The notes under the pieces were generated by a model. That model saw only the letters and a program-made list of their open reading frames with translations. It was not told where the DNA came from and did not search any database. Shown here piece by piece: positions 42,894 to 51,132 of a stretch of DNA of 64,000 nucleotides; position 1 is the first letter of the stretch; each line of letters begins with the position of its first letter. Where the stretch lies: NCBI RefSeq assembly GCF_004346195.1, contig NZ_SMAK01000007.1:124001-188000 (forward strand), in the 5' to 3' direction. Source of the DNA: Tepidamorphus gemmatus. Its GTDB lineage: Bacteria; Pseudomonadota; Alphaproteobacteria; Rhizobiales; Tepidamorphaceae. Both the position numbers and the translations under genes were made by a program.

Positions 42894-42921
42894 TGATCCG
42901 GATCCGTTCCCTCGGCGTATC
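42894..42921 (+). promoter_or_regulatory. ECF sigma (RpoE-type) promoter of rpoE-chrR
   Basis: TGATCC (42894-42899), 16 bases, then CGTATC (42916-42921), ending 30 bp before the rpoE ATG. TGATC is the -35 element known for the Rhodobacter RpoE/ChrR class. The same two blocks at the same spacing precede the amine-oxidase operon at 51132-51105. Placement fits autoregulation by the sigma factor. Confidence 0.75.
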
Positions 42922-42951
42922 AGCCGCGGTATCAACGAGGGATCTTGAGGC

Positions 42952-43572
42952 ATGCACGCGGCATTCGCCATGACACCCGATCCCGCTGCCACAGCAATGT
43001 CGGCATCCGCCGAGCCGATGGCGCTGCTCGTGGCGCGCGTCGCCTTGAGCCGCGACCGCGAGGCGTTTCGGCAGCTCTATTGCCATTATGCGCCGCGGGT
43101 GAAGGGCCTGATGCTGCGCAAGGGAGCGAGCCCGGAGCTGGCCGAGGAACTGATGCAGGAAACGATGCTGGCGGTATGGACCAAGGCGTCGCTCTTCCAT
43201 CCCGGTCGCGGCTCTGTGGCGACGTGGATCTTCACCATCGCCCGCAACCTGCGCATCGACCGGCTCAGGCGCGAGAACGTCCAGCATTTCGAGGATGTGC
43301 ACGAGCTCGAGATCGCCGAGGGCGATCTGCCCGGCGGCCGCGAGGTGCTTGCCCAGGACGAGGCGGCGATCGCCCGGCAGGAGCAGCGCCGCGTGGCCGA
43401 AGCGCTCGGCACCTTGCCCGGCGAGCAAGCCGATATTCTCAGGCTGTCCTTCGTCGACGAGCTGTCGCAGAGCGATATCGCGCAGCGGCTGTCCCTGCCG
43501 CTGGGCACGGTCAAGTCGCGCATGCGGCTCGCCTATCGCCGGCTTCGCCTGGCCCTGGAGGAACGGTCGTGA
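42952..43572 (+). CDS. rpoE: ECF RNA polymerase sigma factor, ChrR-regulated (ECF11-like)
   Basis: A 206-residue sigma factor with region 2 (REAFRQLYCHYAPRVKG to ATWIFTIARNLRIDRLRR, about residues 36-107) and region 4 (LGTLPGEQADILRLSFVDEL, then LSLPLGTVKSRMRLAYRRLR), and no other domain. In Rhodobacter sphaeroides the corresponding RpoE is held by ChrR and released by singlet oxygen. Its TGA overlaps the GTG of chrR. A TGATCC-N16-CGTATC promoter lies 30 bp upstream. The targets visible in the window are its own operon and the amine oxidase-DUF1365-CFA operon. Confidence 0.92.
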   Translation: MHAAFAMTPDPAATAMSASAEPMALLVARVALSRDREAFRQLYCHYAPRVKGLMLRKGASPELAEELMQETMLAVWTKASLFHPGRGSVATWIFTIARNLRIDRLRRENVQHFEDVHELEIAEGDLPGGREVLAQDEAAIARQEQRRVAEALGTLPGEQADILRLSFVDELSQSDIAQRLSLPLGTVKSRMRLAYRRLRLALEERS

Positions 43573-44225
43573 ACATTCGCCACCATCCCGACGAAGCGAC
43601 CCTGTTGGCCTACGCGGCCGGCAGCCTGACCGAGGCCCTGTCCGTGACAGTCGCCGCGCATCTGGCAATGTGCGCACACTGCCGCGCCGCAGTGCGCACC
43701 GCCGAGGCGATCGGCGGCGCCTCGCTGGAGAACGCCGAAATCGCTCCGCTGGCGGCCGATTCGCTCGCCCACATGATGGCGCGGATCGAGACCCCGGCGG
43801 CGCTGAGGCCGGAGCCCCGGCCGAAGCCCCGCGTCACCGATCCGCGTGTTCCGATGCCGCTCGCCCGCCGTATCGACGGCGGTCTCGACGAGATCCGCTG
43901 GCGCTGGATTGCGCCGGGTGTGCGCAGCCACGAGATTTCCGTGTCGCCGAGCGGCGGACGGCTGGTGCTGCTGCGGATTGCGTCGGGCAAGGCGATGCCC
44001 GAGCACGGCCATCGCGGCAGCGAACTGACGCTGGTGCTGGCCGGCTCCTACAGCGATGCGACAGGCCGCTATGGCCCCGGTGATCTCGCCGACCTTGACG
44101 AGGATCTCGAGCACACTCCGGTGGTCGATTCCGAGGAGGATTGCATCTGCCTCGTGGCGACAGAGGCGCCGACCCGGTTCAAGTCGCTGATCGGGCGGTT
44201 GCTGCAGCCCTACCTGCGACTCTGA
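43569..44225 (+). CDS. chrR: ChrR-family zinc-binding anti-sigma factor with cupin domain
   Basis: A 218-residue two-domain protein. The N-terminal anti-sigma domain has His6, His31, Cys35 and Cys38 (HLAMCAHC), the same four zinc ligands at the same positions as R. sphaeroides ChrR. The C-terminal cupin carries a second metal set: His146, His148, Glu152 (EHGHRGSELTLVLAGSY) and His182 (DLEHTPVV). It starts at a GTG overlapping the sigma stop, the usual coupling for stoichiometric production. In the model, singlet oxygen triggers loss of ChrR and frees RpoE. Confidence 0.93.
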   Translation: MNIRHHPDEATLLAYAAGSLTEALSVTVAAHLAMCAHCRAAVRTAEAIGGASLENAEIAPLAADSLAHMMARIETPAALRPEPRPKPRVTDPRVPMPLARRIDGGLDEIRWRWIAPGVRSHEISVSPSGGRLVLLRIASGKAMPEHGHRGSELTLVLAGSYSDATGRYGPGDLADLDEDLEHTPVVDSEEDCICLVATEAPTRFKSLIGRLLQPYLRL

Positions 44226-44229
44226 GGCC

Positions 44230-45000
44230 ATGGCCGCGGCAACCGGAGCGGCCTGGACGACCGCCTGGGTGATCGGCGCCAGCTCCGGGCTCGGCCGTGA
44301 GATCGCGCGTCAGCTTGCGGCCCGCGGCGTCAGCGTCGCCGCTTCGGCGCGGCGGGCCGACGCGCTCGAAGTCCTCACTCGCGACAGTGGCGGCGCGATC
44401 CGGCCCTATCCGCTCGACATCGTCGACACAAGTGCAGTTCGTGCGGTGGCGGACCGGATCGAGCAGGACCTCGGAACGCCGGACCTGGTGGTGCAGGCAG
44501 CGGCCGTCTGGCATCCGTTTCGCCTCGACGACGTCTCGGCGGACAGCTTCGAGCGGTCGATGCAGGTCAACTATCTTGGCAGCGTCAACGTCGTCGCGGC
44601 GGTGCTGCCCCGGATGCGGCAGGCCGACCGCGGGACCATCGCGCTGATTGCCTCGGTCGCCGGTTATCGCGGCCTGCCGAAGGCGGCGATCTATGCCCCG
44701 ACCAAGGCCGCCCTGATCAGCCTGGCCGAATGTCTGCACACCGAGCTGGACGGCAGCGGGGTGTCGGTCAGGATCGTCAATCCCGGCTTCATCGCAACAC
44801 CGATGACCGCGCGGAACGACTTCCCGATGCCATTCCTGATGCAGCCCGACGAGGCGGCACGGCGCACGATCGACGGGCTGGCCGGACGCGGTTTCGAGAC
44901 GGCCTATCCCCGCCGGTTCGTGGCCGTCCTCAAGCTGATGCGGCTGTTGCCCTATTCCCTCTACTTCCCGATCATCCGCAAGCTGGTGTCGCGCCGATGA
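44230..45000 (+). CDS. Short-chain dehydrogenase in the rpoE-chrR operon
   Basis: A 256-residue SDR with cofactor motif WVIGASSGLGREIA, a catalytic Ser in ASVAGYRG and Y-x3-K in IYAPTKAALIS. The C-terminal LLPYSLYFPIIRKLV is hydrophobic and basic, suggesting membrane association. It lies four bases after chrR and overlaps the next gene by ATGA, so it is part of the stress operon. SDR genes occur in RpoE-regulated lipid clusters of Rhodobacter; an oxidised-lipid substrate is inferred. Confidence 0.85.
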   Translation: MAAATGAAWTTAWVIGASSGLGREIARQLAARGVSVAASARRADALEVLTRDSGGAIRPYPLDIVDTSAVRAVADRIEQDLGTPDLVVQAAAVWHPFRLDDVSADSFERSMQVNYLGSVNVVAAVLPRMRQADRGTIALIASVAGYRGLPKAAIYAPTKAALISLAECLHTELDGSGVSVRIVNPGFIATPMTARNDFPMPFLMQPDEAARRTIDGLAGRGFETAYPRRFVAVLKLMRLLPYSLYFPIIRKLVSRR

Positions 45001-45440
45001 ACAGCCAGTCTGAGGCCCGTGCGGCCGTGGACCGCTACAACCGAACGCTCGAGACGCTGCGCCCCGACACGATCGACGATCTGCTGGCGCTGTGCACCGC
45101 GGACATCCGTTTTGCCGATCCGTTCAACGACGTGGTCGGTCGCGCCGCGGTCGGACGCGTCTACGAAGACATGTTCGGGAAGGTCCGCGACCTGAAGTTC
45201 ACCGTGCTCGACTGTCATGGCGCCGGTCCGGTGTATCTGACCCGCTGGCGGTTCGAGGGCCGCATGGGCCGGCTCGGCCACAATGCGGTCGAGGGAATGA
45301 GTCACCTCACGCTCGACGGCGACGGGCTGGTGCGGGCCCATATCGACTACTGGGACGCCGCCCGCCTCTACGCGCGCCTGCCGCTGCTCGGAGCCATCCT
45401 CGCCGCGATCCGGCGGCGCATCTCTGCCCGCGCCGGCTGA
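44997..45440 (+). CDS. NTF2/SnoaL-like protein
   Basis: A 147-residue protein of the cone-shaped NTF2/SnoaL fold: YNRTLETLRPDTIDDLLALC, TADIRFADPFNDVVGRAAVG, LTRWRFEGRMG and the final HIDYWDAARLYARLPLLG. The fold serves small isomerases, hydratases and binding proteins. It starts at an ATG overlapping the SDR stop. As the last gene of the rpoE operon it probably handles the same metabolite as the SDR. Its own reaction is unknown. Confidence 0.82.
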   Translation: MNSQSEARAAVDRYNRTLETLRPDTIDDLLALCTADIRFADPFNDVVGRAAVGRVYEDMFGKVRDLKFTVLDCHGAGPVYLTRWRFEGRMGRLGHNAVEGMSHLTLDGDGLVRAHIDYWDAARLYARLPLLGAILAAIRRRISARAG

Positions 45441-45463
45441 GGCTGCTGGCGACCGTCCGCGGC

Positions 45464-47185
45464 TCAGTCCCGGGCGGACAGCCGACGGCGCAACTTGCCG
45501 ACTGCGTCCTCGATGCGCCGGTCGAACCGCGCCAGCGGCGGCTTGATGCCGTTGGCGAACAGCGTCTGTCGCATCTCGTGGGTGGTGCCGGTGAACACCA
45601 GCCGGACACCGCGCCGGTGGGCCTTGTGCGCCAGGGTCTCCAGCGTGTTGGCTGCGGTTGAATCGAGGAAGGGAACCGCCGACAGGTCGATCACCAGGGC
45701 CCGGTGGCGATCGGCGATGCGGTCCAGTACCGAGCCAATCGAGGCGGCGGCCCCGAAGAAGAACACGCCGGAGATCCGGTAGACGACGACGTCGGGATCG
45801 GCGGCGACGGTCTCGTCGTAGGGCGTACGGCCGCCATTGGCGGTGTCGGCGCGGTCCTCCGGCACGAACGGCACAGCCGTCTCGATCGCGGTCATCCGCG
45901 ACATGCGCTGGATGAACAGCAACGAACCGAGCGCGACGCCGACGACGATACCTTCTGTCAGATCGCGGAAGATCGTCAGCAGGAAGGTCGCCAGCAGGAC
46001 GGCGGCATCGCCCCACGAGGCCTTCAGCAAGGCGGCGAAGGCCTGCTTCTCGGCCATGTTCCAGGCGACCACGATCAGGACAGCGGCAAGGCTCGCCAGC
46101 GGAATGAAGCGCGCCAGCGGCGCCGCCACCAGCACGAAGCCGAGCAGGAAGACCGCATGCAGCATGCCCGCGATCGGGCCGTGCGCGCCGGCCCGCACGT
46201 TAGTCGCGGTGCGCGCGATCGTGCCGGTCACGCAGATGCCGCCGAACAGCGCGGAGCCGATATTGGCGATGCCCTGGGCGACCAGCTCACAGTTCGAACG
46301 GTGCCGGCGCCCGGTCATGCCGTCCGCAACCACGGCCGAGAGCAGCGATTCGATCGCCCCGAGCAGGGTGAAGCTCACCGCGCTGGGCAGGACGGCCACC
46401 ACCTTGGCGAGGCTCATCTGCGGCAGCGCCGGCATCGGCAGGCTGGCCGGGATGCCGCCGAAGGCGGAGCCGATGGTGGCGACCGGCAGATCGAGCAGCG
46501 CGGTGGCGAGCGTTGCGATGGCCACCGCCATGAGCATGCCGGGCCAGTGCGGGCGCACCGCCTTGAGCCCGGCGATGGCGGCCACCGTGGTCGCCGACAG
46601 CGCCACCGTGACGGGATCGACGGTGGCGGCGGCTTTCCACAGCGCCGGCAGCTTCTCGATGAGCGGACCAGGCTCCGGACCGGCGAGTGCAAGACCGAAC
46701 AGGCTCTTGATCTGGCTCGCGGCGATGATCACCGCGATGCCGGCCGTGAAGCCGACCGTCACCGGATAGGGGATGAACTTCACGTAGGTGCCGAGCCTGA
46801 GCAGCCCGACGGCGACGAGCATCACCCCTGACATGAGGGTGGCCAGGATCACCCCGTCCATGCCGTGGGCAGCGGCCGTGGTGGCGACCAGCACGATGAA
46901 GGCGCCAGCCGGCCCGCCGATCTGGAACCGGCTGCCGCCGAGTGCGGAAACGAGAAATCCGCCGACGATCGCCGTGTAGAGCCCCTGCGCCGGTGTCGCA
47001 CCGGAAGCGATGGCAATGGCCATCGAAAGCGGCAGCGCGACGATGGCGACGGTCAGCCCGGCCAGGGCGTCAGATCGCAGGTTCGCGACGCTGTAGCCTT
47101 CGCGGAGGACGGTGACCAGCTTCGGGGTGAACAGTTCGACGAAGCTCGGTGCGGCCTCAACCGCTGTGGTCCTCGATGGTCTCAT
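45464..47185 (-). CDS. SulP-family inorganic anion transporter with STAS domain
   Basis: A 573-residue inner-membrane protein with about a dozen helices, the SulP signature stretch ALPLSMAIAIASGATPAQGLYTAIVGG and FQIGGPAGAF, and a C-terminal STAS domain (VYRISGVFFFGAAASIGSVL, LVIDLSAVPFLDSTAANTL). Members carry sulfate, bicarbonate or other anions. The gene lies 72 bp after an XRE regulator gene on the same strand, probably in one operon. It sits between the two RpoE-linked operons but has no matching promoter itself. Confidence 0.9.
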   Translation of the reverse strand: MRPSRTTAVEAAPSFVELFTPKLVTVLREGYSVANLRSDALAGLTVAIVALPLSMAIAIASGATPAQGLYTAIVGGFLVSALGGSRFQIGGPAGAFIVLVATTAAAHGMDGVILATLMSGVMLVAVGLLRLGTYVKFIPYPVTVGFTAGIAVIIAASQIKSLFGLALAGPEPGPLIEKLPALWKAAATVDPVTVALSATTVAAIAGLKAVRPHWPGMLMAVAIATLATALLDLPVATIGSAFGGIPASLPMPALPQMSLAKVVAVLPSAVSFTLLGAIESLLSAVVADGMTGRRHRSNCELVAQGIANIGSALFGGICVTGTIARTATNVRAGAHGPIAGMLHAVFLLGFVLVAAPLARFIPLASLAAVLIVVAWNMAEKQAFAALLKASWGDAAVLLATFLLTIFRDLTEGIVVGVALGSLLFIQRMSRMTAIETAVPFVPEDRADTANGGRTPYDETVAADPDVVVYRISGVFFFGAAASIGSVLDRIADRHRALVIDLSAVPFLDSTAANTLETLAHKAHRRGVRLVFTGTTHEMRQTLFANGIKPPLARFDRRIEDAVGKLRRRLSARD

Positions 47186-47257
47186 GCGTGCTGCGCCCTC
47201 AACAGGCGCGGCGGGAATTGTCCGGCCGGGGTCGGTGTTCCCGTCGCAGATGGTGTC

Positions 47258-47521
47258 TCAGCTCTGGGGTGGGGCCGGCTCCTTGAGGCGGACGCCGCGC
47301 CCGCCGGCAAGGCTCTGGGCATTGTCGCCGATCAGCTCGACGCCGGCGCGGTCGAGGGCCTCGATCACCCGGGTCAGGCTGTCGACGACACCCCGCACGG
47401 TACCGGGGCTCGCCTCCATCCGCTGGATGGTCGGAACCGAGACGCCCGCCAACTCGGCCAGCCTGCGCTGGTCGAGTCCGAGCAGCGCCCGCGCGGCGCG
47501 AAGCTGCATGCCGGTCATCAT
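47258..47521 (-). CDS. XRE-family helix-turn-helix regulator
   Basis: An 87-residue protein that is essentially one Cro/CI-type HTH: MQLRAARALLGLDQRRLAEL, AGVSVPTIQRMEAS, plus a short C-terminal part (RVIEALDRAGVELIGD) usual in regulators paired with SulP genes. The start is one of two consecutive ATGs. Upstream DNA is AT-rich (TATATG, TGTATATTGA) and contains GATGTTT-C-AAACATC, a likely binding site. It is likely to control itself and the SulP gene. Confidence 0.85.
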   Translation of the reverse strand: MMTGMQLRAARALLGLDQRRLAELAGVSVPTIQRMEASPGTVRGVVDSLTRVIEALDRAGVELIGDNAQSLAGGRGVRLKEPAPPQS

Positions 47522-47567
47522 GATTGCGGCCTTGTATATGTTTATGACTGCTTGCGCAATGTATATT

Positions 47568-47582
47568 GATGTTTCAAACATC
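47568..47582. promoter_or_regulatory. Palindrome upstream of the XRE gene
   Basis: GATGTTT and AAACATC are perfect 7-bp arms around a single C, 47 bp before the XRE start and within an AT-rich island that probably holds the promoter. Short dyads of this kind are typical operators of small XRE repressors. The 94-bp gap to the converging-strand CFA gene end lies on the other side. Confidence 0.5.
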
Positions 47583-47676
47583 AACATCGTGGCGACGACC
47601 AGCACCTGCCCGGCCGCCGCGAGCCGGTCTGCCGGTGTGCGGAAAAGGCCGGCAGGGCCGGGCACCCGCCACGCGC

Positions 47677-48918
47677 TCAGCCGGTCTTCACCAGCCGGTA
47701 GATGCCGACGTCGATCGTGCGTTCGGTGAAACCCGCCTCGCAATAGGCGAGGTAGTAGTCCCAGCGCCGGCGGAAGCGCTCGTCGAATCCGAGCGCGGCG
47801 ATCTGCGGCCAGGCCGCGTTGAACCGCGACCGCCATTCGCGGAGCGTTCGCGCGTAGCAATCGGCGAAGGTCTCGACGCCGTCGAGCGCGAGACCGGCCC
47901 GCTCCGCCTCGCGTGCGATCACCGTGCGCGTCGGCAGCATGCCGCCGGGAAAGATGTATCGCTGGATGAAATCGACGCCGCGCCGGTAGCGCTCGAACAG
48001 CGGTTCGGCAATGGTGATCGCCTGGATGGCCGCCGTGCCGGACGATCTGAGCCGCGCCGCCAGCGTCGCGAAGTAGTGCGGCCAGTTGGCCTCGCCGACG
48101 GCCTCGATCATTTCGATCGAGGCGATCCGATCGTAGCTGCCCTCGGTATCGCGGTAGTCCTCAAAGCGCAGATCGCACCGGGCCGCCAGACCGGCCTCGG
48201 CAATGCGGCGCCTGGCATAGACGAGCTGCTCGCGCGACAGGGTGATGCCGGTCACGGTCAGATCGCGCTCGCCCGCCGCCACCTCGGCGAAGCCGCCCCA
48301 GCCGCAGCCGATTTCCAACACATGGTCGCCGGCCTGCGGCGACAGCGCCTCGATCACCTTGCGGTACTTGGCATGCTGGGCAGAGGCGAGGTCGTTGGCG
48401 CCATCGGCAAAATAGGCGCTGGAATAGGTCATGCTGTCGTCGAGCCAGAGCCGGTAGAAATCGTTCGACAGGTCGTAATGCGCCGCGATGTTCCGCCTGG
48501 CTCCGGCGCGGGTGTTGGGCCTGACCAGATGGTAGAGCCGGTCGGGGAGGCGCACGCGGAACAGCCGCCCGCCGGCCGCCCCGAGCGCGGCCTCGTTATG
48601 CAGGAAGAACCGCAGCACCGCCACCAGATCGGGCGTGGTCAGATCGCCGTCCATATAGGCCTGGGCAAAGCCGATGGTGCCGCGGCGGATTGCCTTCGGA
48701 ATGATTGCGAGATTCCGGAAATCGATCTCGGCGTCGATGCCGTCGCACCCGGACTCCAGCCGGAAGCGGCCCCCGTCCGGCACCGTCAACGTCAGACTGC
48801 CGACCGGCCGGAAGTTCCGCAAGGCATGCTGGAGGGCGGCAAGCGCGGCACGATCGAGCAGACCGGCGACCGGCCCGCGCGGACGGTAGGTCAATCGGGG
48901 CAGGGGCGACAGGCTCAT
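47677..48918 (-). CDS. Cyclopropane-fatty-acyl-phospholipid synthase-type SAM methyltransferase
   Basis: A 413-residue enzyme of the CFA synthase family acting on unsaturated acyl chains of membrane phospholipids. HYDLSNDFYRLWLDDSMTYSSAYF (147-170), the SAM motif VLEIGCGWGG (200-209), IEMIEAVGEANWPHYF and QRYIFPGGMLP are all present. Family members either cyclopropanate or simply methylate the double bond, as UfaM does in Rhodobacter furan fatty-acid synthesis; sequence alone does not decide. I chose ATG 48918 over an in-frame TTG twelve bases upstream. It is the last gene of the amine oxidase-DUF1365-CFA operon. Confidence 0.9.
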   Translation of the reverse strand: MSLSPLPRLTYRPRGPVAGLLDRAALAALQHALRNFRPVGSLTLTVPDGGRFRLESGCDGIDAEIDFRNLAIIPKAIRRGTIGFAQAYMDGDLTTPDLVAVLRFFLHNEAALGAAGGRLFRVRLPDRLYHLVRPNTRAGARRNIAAHYDLSNDFYRLWLDDSMTYSSAYFADGANDLASAQHAKYRKVIEALSPQAGDHVLEIGCGWGGFAEVAAGERDLTVTGITLSREQLVYARRRIAEAGLAARCDLRFEDYRDTEGSYDRIASIEMIEAVGEANWPHYFATLAARLRSSGTAAIQAITIAEPLFERYRRGVDFIQRYIFPGGMLPTRTVIAREAERAGLALDGVETFADCYARTLREWRSRFNAAWPQIAALGFDERFRRRWDYYLAYCEAGFTERTIDVGIYRLVKTG

Positions 48919-48931
48919 CGATGCTTGCAAC

Positions 48932-49729
48932 TCACTGCAACGGTCCGTCAGGTTCCGGGGAGGAGAAGATGGCGGAATGGCCGGTGTCGCGCGGCCGCGG
49001 CACCATGCGAAGGCCCTTCCGCCACAGCTTCAAGGCCTCCCAATGGATGCCGGCCGTAACTTTCCACGTCAATGCCGGATGACGCGCCAGGGTTCGGACC
49101 AAACCGCGATCGTCGAACGGCCGCCGTCGACCGACCAGATGGGCCGTGAGGATCGGCTGGCGCCGGCGCGACAGGGCGACGCCGACCCTGACCCGGTCGC
49201 CGGGCGGTGCTATGGTGAAATCGTAGCGGCCGTCGGCATGATTGAAGGGCGACACGTAGAGTCGCTTGTCGGCCACCTGCCGGATCGGGCCCGTCGGTGC
49301 CGGCCCAGCCGGAACGACATAGGTCTTGCGCTCCCCGAAGGTGTTGGAAACCTCGTACAGGATCAGCCGCACCTCGCCCGAGCGGGCATAGCAGAAGTAG
49401 ACGGAGAGCGGATTGAAGACATAACCCAGCATGCGCGGCAGGCACAGGAGCTCGACACGCGCGATCTCCCCCGCCAGCCCGGCCGCCGCGGCGAGCCGTG
49501 CCGCGTGCTCGGCCAGCGGGGTGCCGTCGCCCGGTCCGTGATCCCGATCGCGGATCGAGAACAGGTTGAAGCGGTTGTGGGAGAACAGCCGCGATCGGCG
49601 GTCGAGCTCGTCGAGCCGGGCGATGTCGACCAGCGCATAGGTCAGCGCGTATCGCAGTTCATGGTCGACCGGATGCAGCCTGCGGTGGACGACGATCACG
49701 TCGTAGAGGGCTGCGGGCGCGTCGCTCAC
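48932..49729 (-). CDS. DUF1365 family protein
   Basis: A 265-residue protein with the family's core: VVHRRLHPVDHELRYALTYA near the start, LLCLPRMLGYVFNPLSVYFC, and ILYEVSNTFGERKTYVVP with KRLYVSPF. DUF1365 genes nearly always stand between a flavin amine oxidase and a CFA-type methyltransferase, and are implicated in fatty-acid modification. The chemistry is not established to my knowledge. It starts at a GTG overlapping the amine oxidase TGA, and ends 13 bp before the CFA start. Confidence 0.88.
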   Translation of the reverse strand: MSDAPAALYDVIVVHRRLHPVDHELRYALTYALVDIARLDELDRRSRLFSHNRFNLFSIRDRDHGPGDGTPLAEHAARLAAAAGLAGEIARVELLCLPRMLGYVFNPLSVYFCYARSGEVRLILYEVSNTFGERKTYVVPAGPAPTGPIRQVADKRLYVSPFNHADGRYDFTIAPPGDRVRVGVALSRRRQPILTAHLVGRRRPFDDRGLVRTLARHPALTWKVTAGIHWEALKLWRKGLRMVPRPRDTGHSAIFSSPEPDGPLQ

Positions 49730-51054
49730 TCGGCAGGCTCCGGTACGGGCCCGCCGGTCAGCGGCGGGGTGACCGCGATTCGACCTGATTCCGCGGCAAC
49801 AGTCCACGGCCGGCGCAGTCCGCCGAGCTGTTCGGCCACGGCTAGCCCGGACTGTATGCCGTCCTCGTGGAAGCCGTCGCCGAAATAGGCCCCGCAGAAC
49901 CAGGTGCGGCGGCGTCCCTGCAGCTGCCACAGCCGCGCCCTGGCGGCCATCGACCGGGCATCGAACACCGGATGATGGTAGACGAAGCTGCCCAGCACGT
50001 GCGCTGCGTCCGGCATGGCGGGCGGATTGAGTGTCACGAAGATGTCGGTCCGCGTCGCCAGCGGTTGCAAGCTGTTCATCCAGTAGCTGACACATAGTCC
50101 GGTCTCGGCGCCGGCGCCTGTCTTGATGTAGTTCCAGCTCGCCCACAGCCGCCGCCGCCTCGGCATCAGCCGGACATCGGTATGCAGGACGGCATGGTTG
50201 CGCTGATAGGGGAAGGCCGACAGCAGCTCGCGCTCGACGTCGTCGGCGTCGGCGAGAATCGACAGGGCCTGGTCGGCATGGGCGGCGACGACCACCTGGT
50301 CGTAGCGCTGGCGACCTCCGTGCCCGTCCAGCACCTCCACCGCGGCGCCACGCCGCGCCACCTCCCGGACCGGCGTCTCGAGACGCAGCACGATGCGCGA
50401 ATCCGCTAGCAATCGCCGGACATATTCGCGGCTGCCGCCGATCACGGTGCGCCAGCGCGGCCGGCCGACCAGGCGGGTGAGGCCGTGATTGCGGTAGAAC
50501 CTGAGGAAGGCGGCCACCGGATAATGTAGCATCCTGTCGGCCGGTGTCGACCAGATCGCCGCGCCCATCGGCAGCAGGTGCTCCTCGATGAAGCGTCGCG
50601 AATATCCGGCGGCAGCCATCGCCGCGCCGAGACCGAGCGGGGACTCGCACAGCGCATCATCGCGCGAGGCCTCGCGAAAGAACCGGAGGATCTCGGCAAG
50701 CAGGCGCCAGTGGTCGCGGTCGAACAGATTGCCGGGCTGGCCGAAGAAACCGGCGAGCGAGCCGGAATATTCGTAGCGTCCGTCCCCTGCCGACAGCGCG
50801 AAACTCATCCGGGTGGATGCGGTGGGTACCGCGAGGTGGCGGAACAGCGCAGTCAGGTTCGGATAGTTGCGCTCGTTGTAGACGATGAAACCGGTGTCGA
50901 CCGGAACCTGCCCCTCTGGCATTGCGACGTCGACGGTGTTGCTGTGGCCTCCGACATGCGCTCCCTGTTCGTAGAGCGTCACGTCATGGGTTCGCGACAG
51001 CAGCCAGGCGGCCGACAAGCCGGAAATTCCGCTGCCGATCACGGCGATTTTCAT
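49726..51054 (-). CDS. FAD-dependent amine-oxidase-family protein (fatty-acid modifying cluster)
   Basis: A 442-residue flavoprotein with MKIAVIGSGISGLSAAWLL (FAD dinucleotide fold) and VTLYEQGAHVGGHSNTVDV. YNERNYPNLTALF is also present, and RRTWFCGAYFGDGFHEDGI closes the FAD site. Despite the family name, such proteins next to DUF1365 and CFA genes are linked to desaturation of methylated acyl chains in furan fatty-acid synthesis (Rhodobacter UfaD, by recall). It is the first gene of the operon, 51 bp after a TGATCC-N16-CGTATC promoter. Confidence 0.87.
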   Translation of the reverse strand: MKIAVIGSGISGLSAAWLLSRTHDVTLYEQGAHVGGHSNTVDVAMPEGQVPVDTGFIVYNERNYPNLTALFRHLAVPTASTRMSFALSAGDGRYEYSGSLAGFFGQPGNLFDRDHWRLLAEILRFFREASRDDALCESPLGLGAAMAAAGYSRRFIEEHLLPMGAAIWSTPADRMLHYPVAAFLRFYRNHGLTRLVGRPRWRTVIGGSREYVRRLLADSRIVLRLETPVREVARRGAAVEVLDGHGGRQRYDQVVVAAHADQALSILADADDVERELLSAFPYQRNHAVLHTDVRLMPRRRRLWASWNYIKTGAGAETGLCVSYWMNSLQPLATRTDIFVTLNPPAMPDAAHVLGSFVYHHPVFDARSMAARARLWQLQGRRRTWFCGAYFGDGFHEDGIQSGLAVAEQLGGLRRPWTVAAESGRIAVTPPLTGGPVPEPAE

Positions 51055-51104
51055 GCAGGCCCCCTTCCGGACGGCATGTCCGGCCGTCCCGGACGCTCGC
51101 GACG

Positions 51105-51132
51105 GATACGATGTGCAGCCAGGGGCGGATCA
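51105..51132 (-). promoter_or_regulatory. ECF sigma (RpoE-type) promoter of the amine oxidase-DUF1365-CFA operon
   Basis: On the minus strand TGATCC (51132-51127), 16 bases, then CGTATC (51110-51105), ending 50 bp before the amine oxidase ATG. Both hexamers and the spacing are identical to the site before rpoE, while the spacers differ. This links the lipid operon to the sigma factor encoded 8 kb away. Confidence 0.75.

Follow-up and report, generated by a model that had tools for sequence, protein, structure and literature searches.

Matching predicted ECF11 promoters precede rpoE-chrR and a putative furan fatty acid operon in Tepidamorphus gemmatus

In a 64,000-nucleotide stretch of the Tepidamorphus gemmatus genome (contig NZ_SMAK01000007.1, positions 124,001 to 188,000; hereafter the window), we found that an operon encoding an extracytoplasmic function (ECF) sigma factor with its ChrR-type anti-sigma factor and an operon encoding three putative lipid-modifying enzymes are preceded by sites with the same -35 and -10 boxes. 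We consider it highly probable (about 0.9) that this pair represents the known ECF11 (RpoE-ChrR) singlet-oxygen stress regulon in an anoxygenic phototroph. This reading draws on the genes, the metal ligands of ChrR, the promoter sequences and their conservation, additional sites in the genome and its reaction-centre genes. Published work already covers the ECF11 group, its promoter and the place of furan fatty acid genes among the core targets, and what is described here is a known mechanism in a new organism.

Results

Two operons preceded by the same promoter sequence

The first operon (42952-45440, plus strand) comprises genes for the ECF sigma factor, ChrR, a short-chain dehydrogenase (SDR) and a SnoaL-like protein, and the second (51054-47677, minus strand) comprises genes for a flavin amine oxidase, a DUF1365 protein and a methyltransferase of the CMAS family; within both operons, genes overlap or lie at most 14 bp apart (Table 1). 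The 28-base sites before the two operons share the -35 box TGATCC and the -10 box CGTATC at a spacing of 16 bases and end 30 bp before the first ATG of rpoE (42952) and 50 bp before that of the amine oxidase gene (51054), while their 16-base spacers are identical at 5/16 positions, which is about chance level. An initial annotation, made from the sequence of the window, had reported this motif at both places, 30-50 bp before the first gene of each operon and with spacers that share no sequence, and each of these statements was confirmed.

By their sequence, both sites match the published promoter of the ECF11 (RpoE/ChrR) group, which is given as TGATCC(N15)GCGTA for R. (Rhodobacter) sphaeroides (Pos19; PMC5036791) and as TGATCC-N16-CGTATT for rpoE2 of Shewanella oneidensis, where the transcription start was mapped, as was that of pgpD (PMC4336711). 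The encoded proteins agree with this assignment, as the top PDB matches of RpoE and ChrR are the solved R. sphaeroides pair and as the window ChrR keeps all eight metal ligands, H6, H31, C35 and C38 for zinc and H146, H148, E152 and H182 in the cupin domain (the ligands of both sites are named in PMC6852236). The sequence features of an ECF11/ChrR pair are found together: a sigma factor with regions 2 and 4, an adjacent ChrR with the HHCC and HHEH ligand sets, and a predicted own-operon promoter TGATCC-N16-CGTA. The genome holds one match to the window RpoE at E <= 1e-15.

In the second operon, a flavin amine oxidase, a DUF1365 protein and an S-adenosylmethionine (SAM)-dependent methyltransferase stand together, which is the ufaDOM gene set. 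In R. sphaeroides, RSP1091 (UfaD) and RSP1090 (UfaO) make the furan fatty acid 9M5-FuFA together with UfaM; RPA2571-2569 of Rhodopseudomonas palustris give the same product, and the three genes are sufficient for its synthesis. UfaO proteins contain DUF1365, and singlet oxygen kills cells unable to make 9M5-FuFA (all PMC7380195). The window operon has the gene set and the order of this pathway, ufaD-ufaO-ufaM, and its putative product is 9M5-FuFA.

Frequency and position of the motif in the genome

The exact 12-mer TGATCC-N16-CGTATC occurs twice in the scanned genome (3,775,092 bases, 32 contigs), both times in the window. From the window's own hexamer frequencies, 0.008 matches would be expected there and 0.46 across the whole genome. 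The shorter pattern TGATCC-N15-17-CGTA gave 9 matches vs 14.4 expected (N16 alone: 4 vs about 4.8), and because such matches are no commoner than expected, their frequency lends no support and it is their position that discriminates. Each of the four exact N16 cores is followed within 60 bp by the start of a gene (rpoE, ufaD, folE and a DUF3833 gene), and the five matches with N15 or N17 overlap open reading frames (ORFs); at one of these, L006, a same-strand ORF begins 74 bp past the site, which keeps it a candidate. A scan for the 12-mer with two mismatches was dropped as useless, since it returned 342 matches; the gap to the 33 matches of a backward-pattern control was put down to base composition.

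The informative part of the motif is the ten bases TGATCC-N16-CGTA. Among 130 exact core sites, the first base after CGTA is A in 49, T in 37, G in 35 and C in 9, and the second is A in 49, C in 33, T in 27 and G in 21, with TC in 12/130; since both positions vary, the final TC of the shared twelve bases is largely chance. Of the twelve fixed bases that the initial annotation called unlikely by chance, ten thus carry the signal. The genome scan that it had proposed, to see whether hits fall before photolyase, rpoH-type and other lipid genes, placed all four N16 matches just before genes; photolyase and an rpoH-like gene came up at 9/10 (see below).

Conservation of the promoters in relatives

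Relatives of ufaD were found in 89/150 genomes of the order, own genome counted, and the neighbourhoods of the other 88 were taken; a second sample consisted of named loci, of which the top 80 out of 593 were used. Paired counts are given in this order, for a core sought at most 250 bp upstream. The exact core TGATCC-N16-CGTA precedes rpoE in 26/41 and 50/66 loci (76/107 together) and ufaD in 24/87 and 31/80 (55/167 together), and it was found upstream of none of the ufaO genes (0/88 and 0/80; 0/168) or ufaM genes (0/79 and 0/65; 0/144). At 9/10 or better, the counts rise to 32/41 and 59/66 for rpoE and to 40/87 and 56/80 for ufaD, with none for ufaO in either sample. Pieces of 250 bases drawn at random from these loci, true sites included, contained an exact core in 167/20,000 cases and a 9/10 match in 356/20,000. 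The promoters and the rpoE-ufa linkage recur in many relatives, and the initial proposal that ECF-type promoters connect rpoE-chrR with the lipid operon is borne out at the level of sequence and conservation.

The other two genes of the rpoE operon were also sought in the 88 ufaD neighbourhoods: an SDR match was found in 65, some of them merely distant SDRs, and a SnoaL/NTF2-like protein in 10.

Separately, the strand of ufaD carries a further exact TGATCC-N16-CGTA some 500 bp past its promoter at G109:C1:173680-173705 and at G074:C14:178029-178054, a site kept in both genomes.

Further candidate members of the regulon

The initial annotation had described a regulon of two operons within 8 kb. 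The pairing of these operons holds, but exact or 9/10 sites elsewhere suggest that the regulon is probably larger. Exact N16 cores lie before folE-hisI at C2:338328, a site overlapped by a 186-aa antisense ORF, and before a DUF3833 gene at C14:42929-42904. The DUF3833 gene is flanked on one side by a cytochrome-like gene, which follows two Photo_RC genes (the two reaction-centre subunit genes of the genome by family match), and on the other side by a geranylgeranyl-reductase-like gene; from the look of their translations, we take these neighbours to be pufL, pufM, pufC, bchP and the like. The photolyase gene has a 9/10 N16 site (CGATCC) 37 bp upstream, and the second-best rpoH match, whose protein scores 274 bits, below the 323-bit family cut-off, also has a 9/10 N16 site (TGAACC). 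Upstream of the best and third rpoH matches, sites reach 7/10 at most; the third, a 695-aa frame scoring 135.7 bits, is probably another sigma-70 protein.

Genes between the operons

The two window operons are convergent, with genes for a SulP-type transporter and a small XRE-type helix-turn-helix (HTH) protein between them. Relatives of the SulP protein amount to one 26% match in the 88 order loci (L128) and one in the 80 named loci (L304), and the XRE-type protein has no match in the 88 ufaD loci. Being nearly absent from the loci of relatives, both genes were set aside as members of the regulon, to which they are probably unrelated. The closest relative, L079, lacks both genes between its operons.

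Table 1. Positions of the features discussed; unprefixed coordinates refer to the window.
Feature	Position	Strand	Basis
Predicted ECF11 promoter of the rpoE operon, TGATCC-N16-CGTA(TC)	42894..42921	+	sequence match TGATCCGGATCCGTTCCCTCGGCGTATC; core conserved in relatives
rpoE, sigma factor of the ECF type (regions 2 and 4 only)	42952..43572	+	Pfam Sigma70_r2/r4; best PDB match RpoE 2Q1Z_A, 8.8e-35
chrR, zinc/cupin anti-sigma factor	43569..44225	+	NCBIfam TIGR02451 above cut-off; best PDB match 2Z2S_B, 6.1e-54
SDR, third gene of the rpoE operon	44230..45000	+	Pfam adh_short, 1.5e-41
SnoaL/NTF2-like protein, fourth gene of the rpoE operon, overlaps SDR stop	44997..45440	+	Pfam SnoaL_2, 1.9e-14
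SulP-type transporter, between the operons	45464..47185	-	Pfam Sulfate_transp and STAS
Small XRE-type HTH protein, between the operons	47258..47521	-	Pfam HTH_3
ufaM-like SAM-dependent fatty-acyl methyltransferase (CMAS family), third gene	47677..48918	-	Pfam CMAS, 1.8e-83
ufaO-like DUF1365 protein, second gene	48932..49729	-	Pfam DUF1365, 4.9e-77
ufaD-like flavin amine oxidase family desaturase, first gene	49726..51054	-	Pfam Amino_oxidase
Predicted ECF11 promoter of the ufaD-ufaO-ufaM operon	51105..51132 (read 51132-51105)	-	sequence match TGATCCGCCCCTGGCTGCACATCGTATC; core conserved in relatives
DUF3833 gene with predicted exact ECF11-type promoter, beside reaction-centre genes	L352:8364-8930 (G000:C14:42363-42929)		core match
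Unlinked zinc-less ChrR loci	L122, L126-L130, L132-L139, L141, L142, L149-L155, L160, L161; e.g. L138:15018-15662		

ChrR proteins without the zinc site in relatives

In R. sphaeroides, ChrR requires its zinc site to hold RpoE, and this site is a proposed singlet-oxygen sensor. We surveyed 129 ChrR proteins, that of the window and 128 from relatives, leaving out the 40/168 loci without a ChrR of at least 150 aa in the stretch. The cupin ligands HHEH are intact in 128/129. Among the rpoE-linked relatives, 24/101 have degenerate anti-sigma zinc ligands (HHCC), a number that includes one alignment or frame artefact (L081) and two proteins in which His6 alone is changed, to Cys (L163 and L164); among ChrR proteins that have no rpoE within 1.5 kb, these ligands are degenerate in 25/27. 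On a maximum-likelihood ChrR tree of 128 rows, with L081 omitted and the zinc columns kept in, nine changes of the zinc state (gains or losses) are required, each imposed by well-supported branches and one of them being the His6-to-Cys pair. A branch with 100/98 support separates the 25 unlinked zinc-less proteins from all others.

An exact core precedes chrR in 21 of these 25 loci (16 with N16 and 5 more with N15), a photolyase- or ufaD-headed operon has an exact core in 14/25, and a photolyase-ufaD-ufaO-ufaM operon lies close by in most. We then searched 27 genomes, those of the 25 loci and two more (G010 and G034) whose ChrR lies outside the ufaD stretch and is likewise zinc-less. A single ChrR was found in 26/27, with an additional weak cupin fragment in the remaining genome, and every one of these genomes encodes, away from ChrR, a single strong RpoE-like sigma factor (E 1e-36 to 1e-45; next best 9e-22). 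The short flanks of these 27 sigma genes contain no ChrR-like gene, and the 300 bp upstream of them no site above 8/10. We infer that this unlinked sigma factor reads the promoters of these loci. At two further loci, L092 and L099, chrR encodes a protein that keeps its zinc site and is preceded by an exact promoter, yet has no adjacent rpoE; in G097, the genome of this pair that was searched, the sigma gene sits on a different contig. This arrangement looks like an intermediate state.

Tentatively, the cupin domain may be the conserved working part of ChrR, acting as a zinc-independent sensor, as an anti-sigma factor acting in trans or as an enzyme. No account of unlinked zinc-less ChrR was found in the published work covered, including passages of PMC8999054, PMC7406223 and PMC6852236, with subscription papers outside its scope. 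Such natural variants could help to settle which ChrR domain senses singlet oxygen.

Discussion

By analogy with R. sphaeroides, from which the signal, the release of ChrR, the use of the promoters, the product and its feedback are taken, ChrR would keep RpoE inactive until singlet oxygen or organic peroxides cause its release or degradation. Freed RpoE would then recognise TGATCC-N16-CGTA and turn on both rpoE-chrR-SDR-SnoaL and ufaD-ufaO-ufaM, the latter of which would provide a methylated furan fatty acid that shields the membrane from singlet oxygen and may feed back on ChrR turnover.

It is hardly credible that two promoters read by other sigma factors came to share the motif by chance: the loose ten-base motif is indeed not above expectation in the genome, but the 12-base form is confined to the two sites, the core recurs in the same position across many relatives, is absent in exact form before operon-internal genes, and is identical to a published promoter whose starts were mapped (PMC4336711). 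The promoters could also be ECF11 sites of an operon making cyclopropane or otherwise modified acyl chains, the methyltransferase being a plain cyclopropane synthase, as its closest PDB structures are such synthases and the genome encodes two further strong CMAS proteins (315 and 273 bits; three near-consensus promoter patterns gave nothing near the starts of their genes). We regard this as improbable, given that gene order and partners are those of the furan pathway set and that the protein scores far under the cut-offs of the NCBIfam models for cyclopropane synthases (262 vs 600 and 241 vs 400). A regulon answering mainly another signal, such as organic peroxide or nitrosative stress, is an unlikely explanation that still deserves some weight, because the ChrR homologue of Caulobacter answers organic hydroperoxides besides singlet oxygen (PMC6852236) and one of Vibrio cholerae answers nitric oxide; against it, the genome has reaction-centre genes, one site adjoins them, and in such an organism light and oxygen should produce singlet oxygen.

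Several observations, besides the possible cyclopropane activity, speak against our interpretation as an ECF11 furan fatty acid regulon. Most relatives lack an exact core before ufaD, and it stands before both operons in 16/41 and 26/66 loci only; part of this may be because the first gene of the operon is photolyase rather than ufaD, photolyase having been found in 23/25 loci of one clade. In the named loci, 3/65 ufaM genes do have a core at 9/10 or better (0/79 in the order loci). Among the additional candidates, the folE site has its CGTA merely 16 bp from the ATG, so that the leader would be very short, and since neither this site nor that of DUF3833 turned up in six relatives, in the 30/52 hit loci examined, both remain predictions.

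Among the closest known counterparts of the ECF11 regulon proposed here, that of R. sphaeroides (RSP1092-1093 with RSP1091-1087 and RSP2144) shares with the window the sigma/anti-sigma pair, its metal ligands, the promoter, and the amine oxidase-DUF1365 pair with its linkage to rpoE. The core of the regulon includes rpoE-chrR and the furan fatty acid genes (PMC6852236, citing Dufour 2008); R. sphaeroides rpoHII depends on RpoE as a direct target (PMC6852236) and phrB belongs to the core set (PMC5507510), matched in the window genome by the 9/10 sites at an rpoH-like gene and the photolyase gene. Unlike in R. sphaeroides, the methyltransferase gene of the window lies within the ufaDO operon, an SDR gene follows chrR, the operons are convergent with the SulP gene between them, and folE is a candidate target. 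The ufaD-ufaO-ufaM order is that of R. palustris RPA2571-2569, likened here by gene set and order. The regulons of S. oneidensis RpoE2-ChrR and Pseudomonas syringae PSPTO_1043 have the same promoter, by mapped starts and scored binding sites, respectively, and photolyase, cfa and SDR targets, but belong to Gammaproteobacteria and have other extended targets; for P. syringae, RpoE/ChrR-type sites and homologues of RSP1087, RSP1088, RSP1090, RSP1091, phrB and cfaS are listed, that of RSP1091 being annotated as a flavin-containing amine oxidase (PMC5507510).

Altogether, T. gemmatus adds one more phototroph in which a furan-fatty-acid-type operon stands under a recognisable ECF11 promoter, with extra candidate targets, one of them beside photosynthesis genes.

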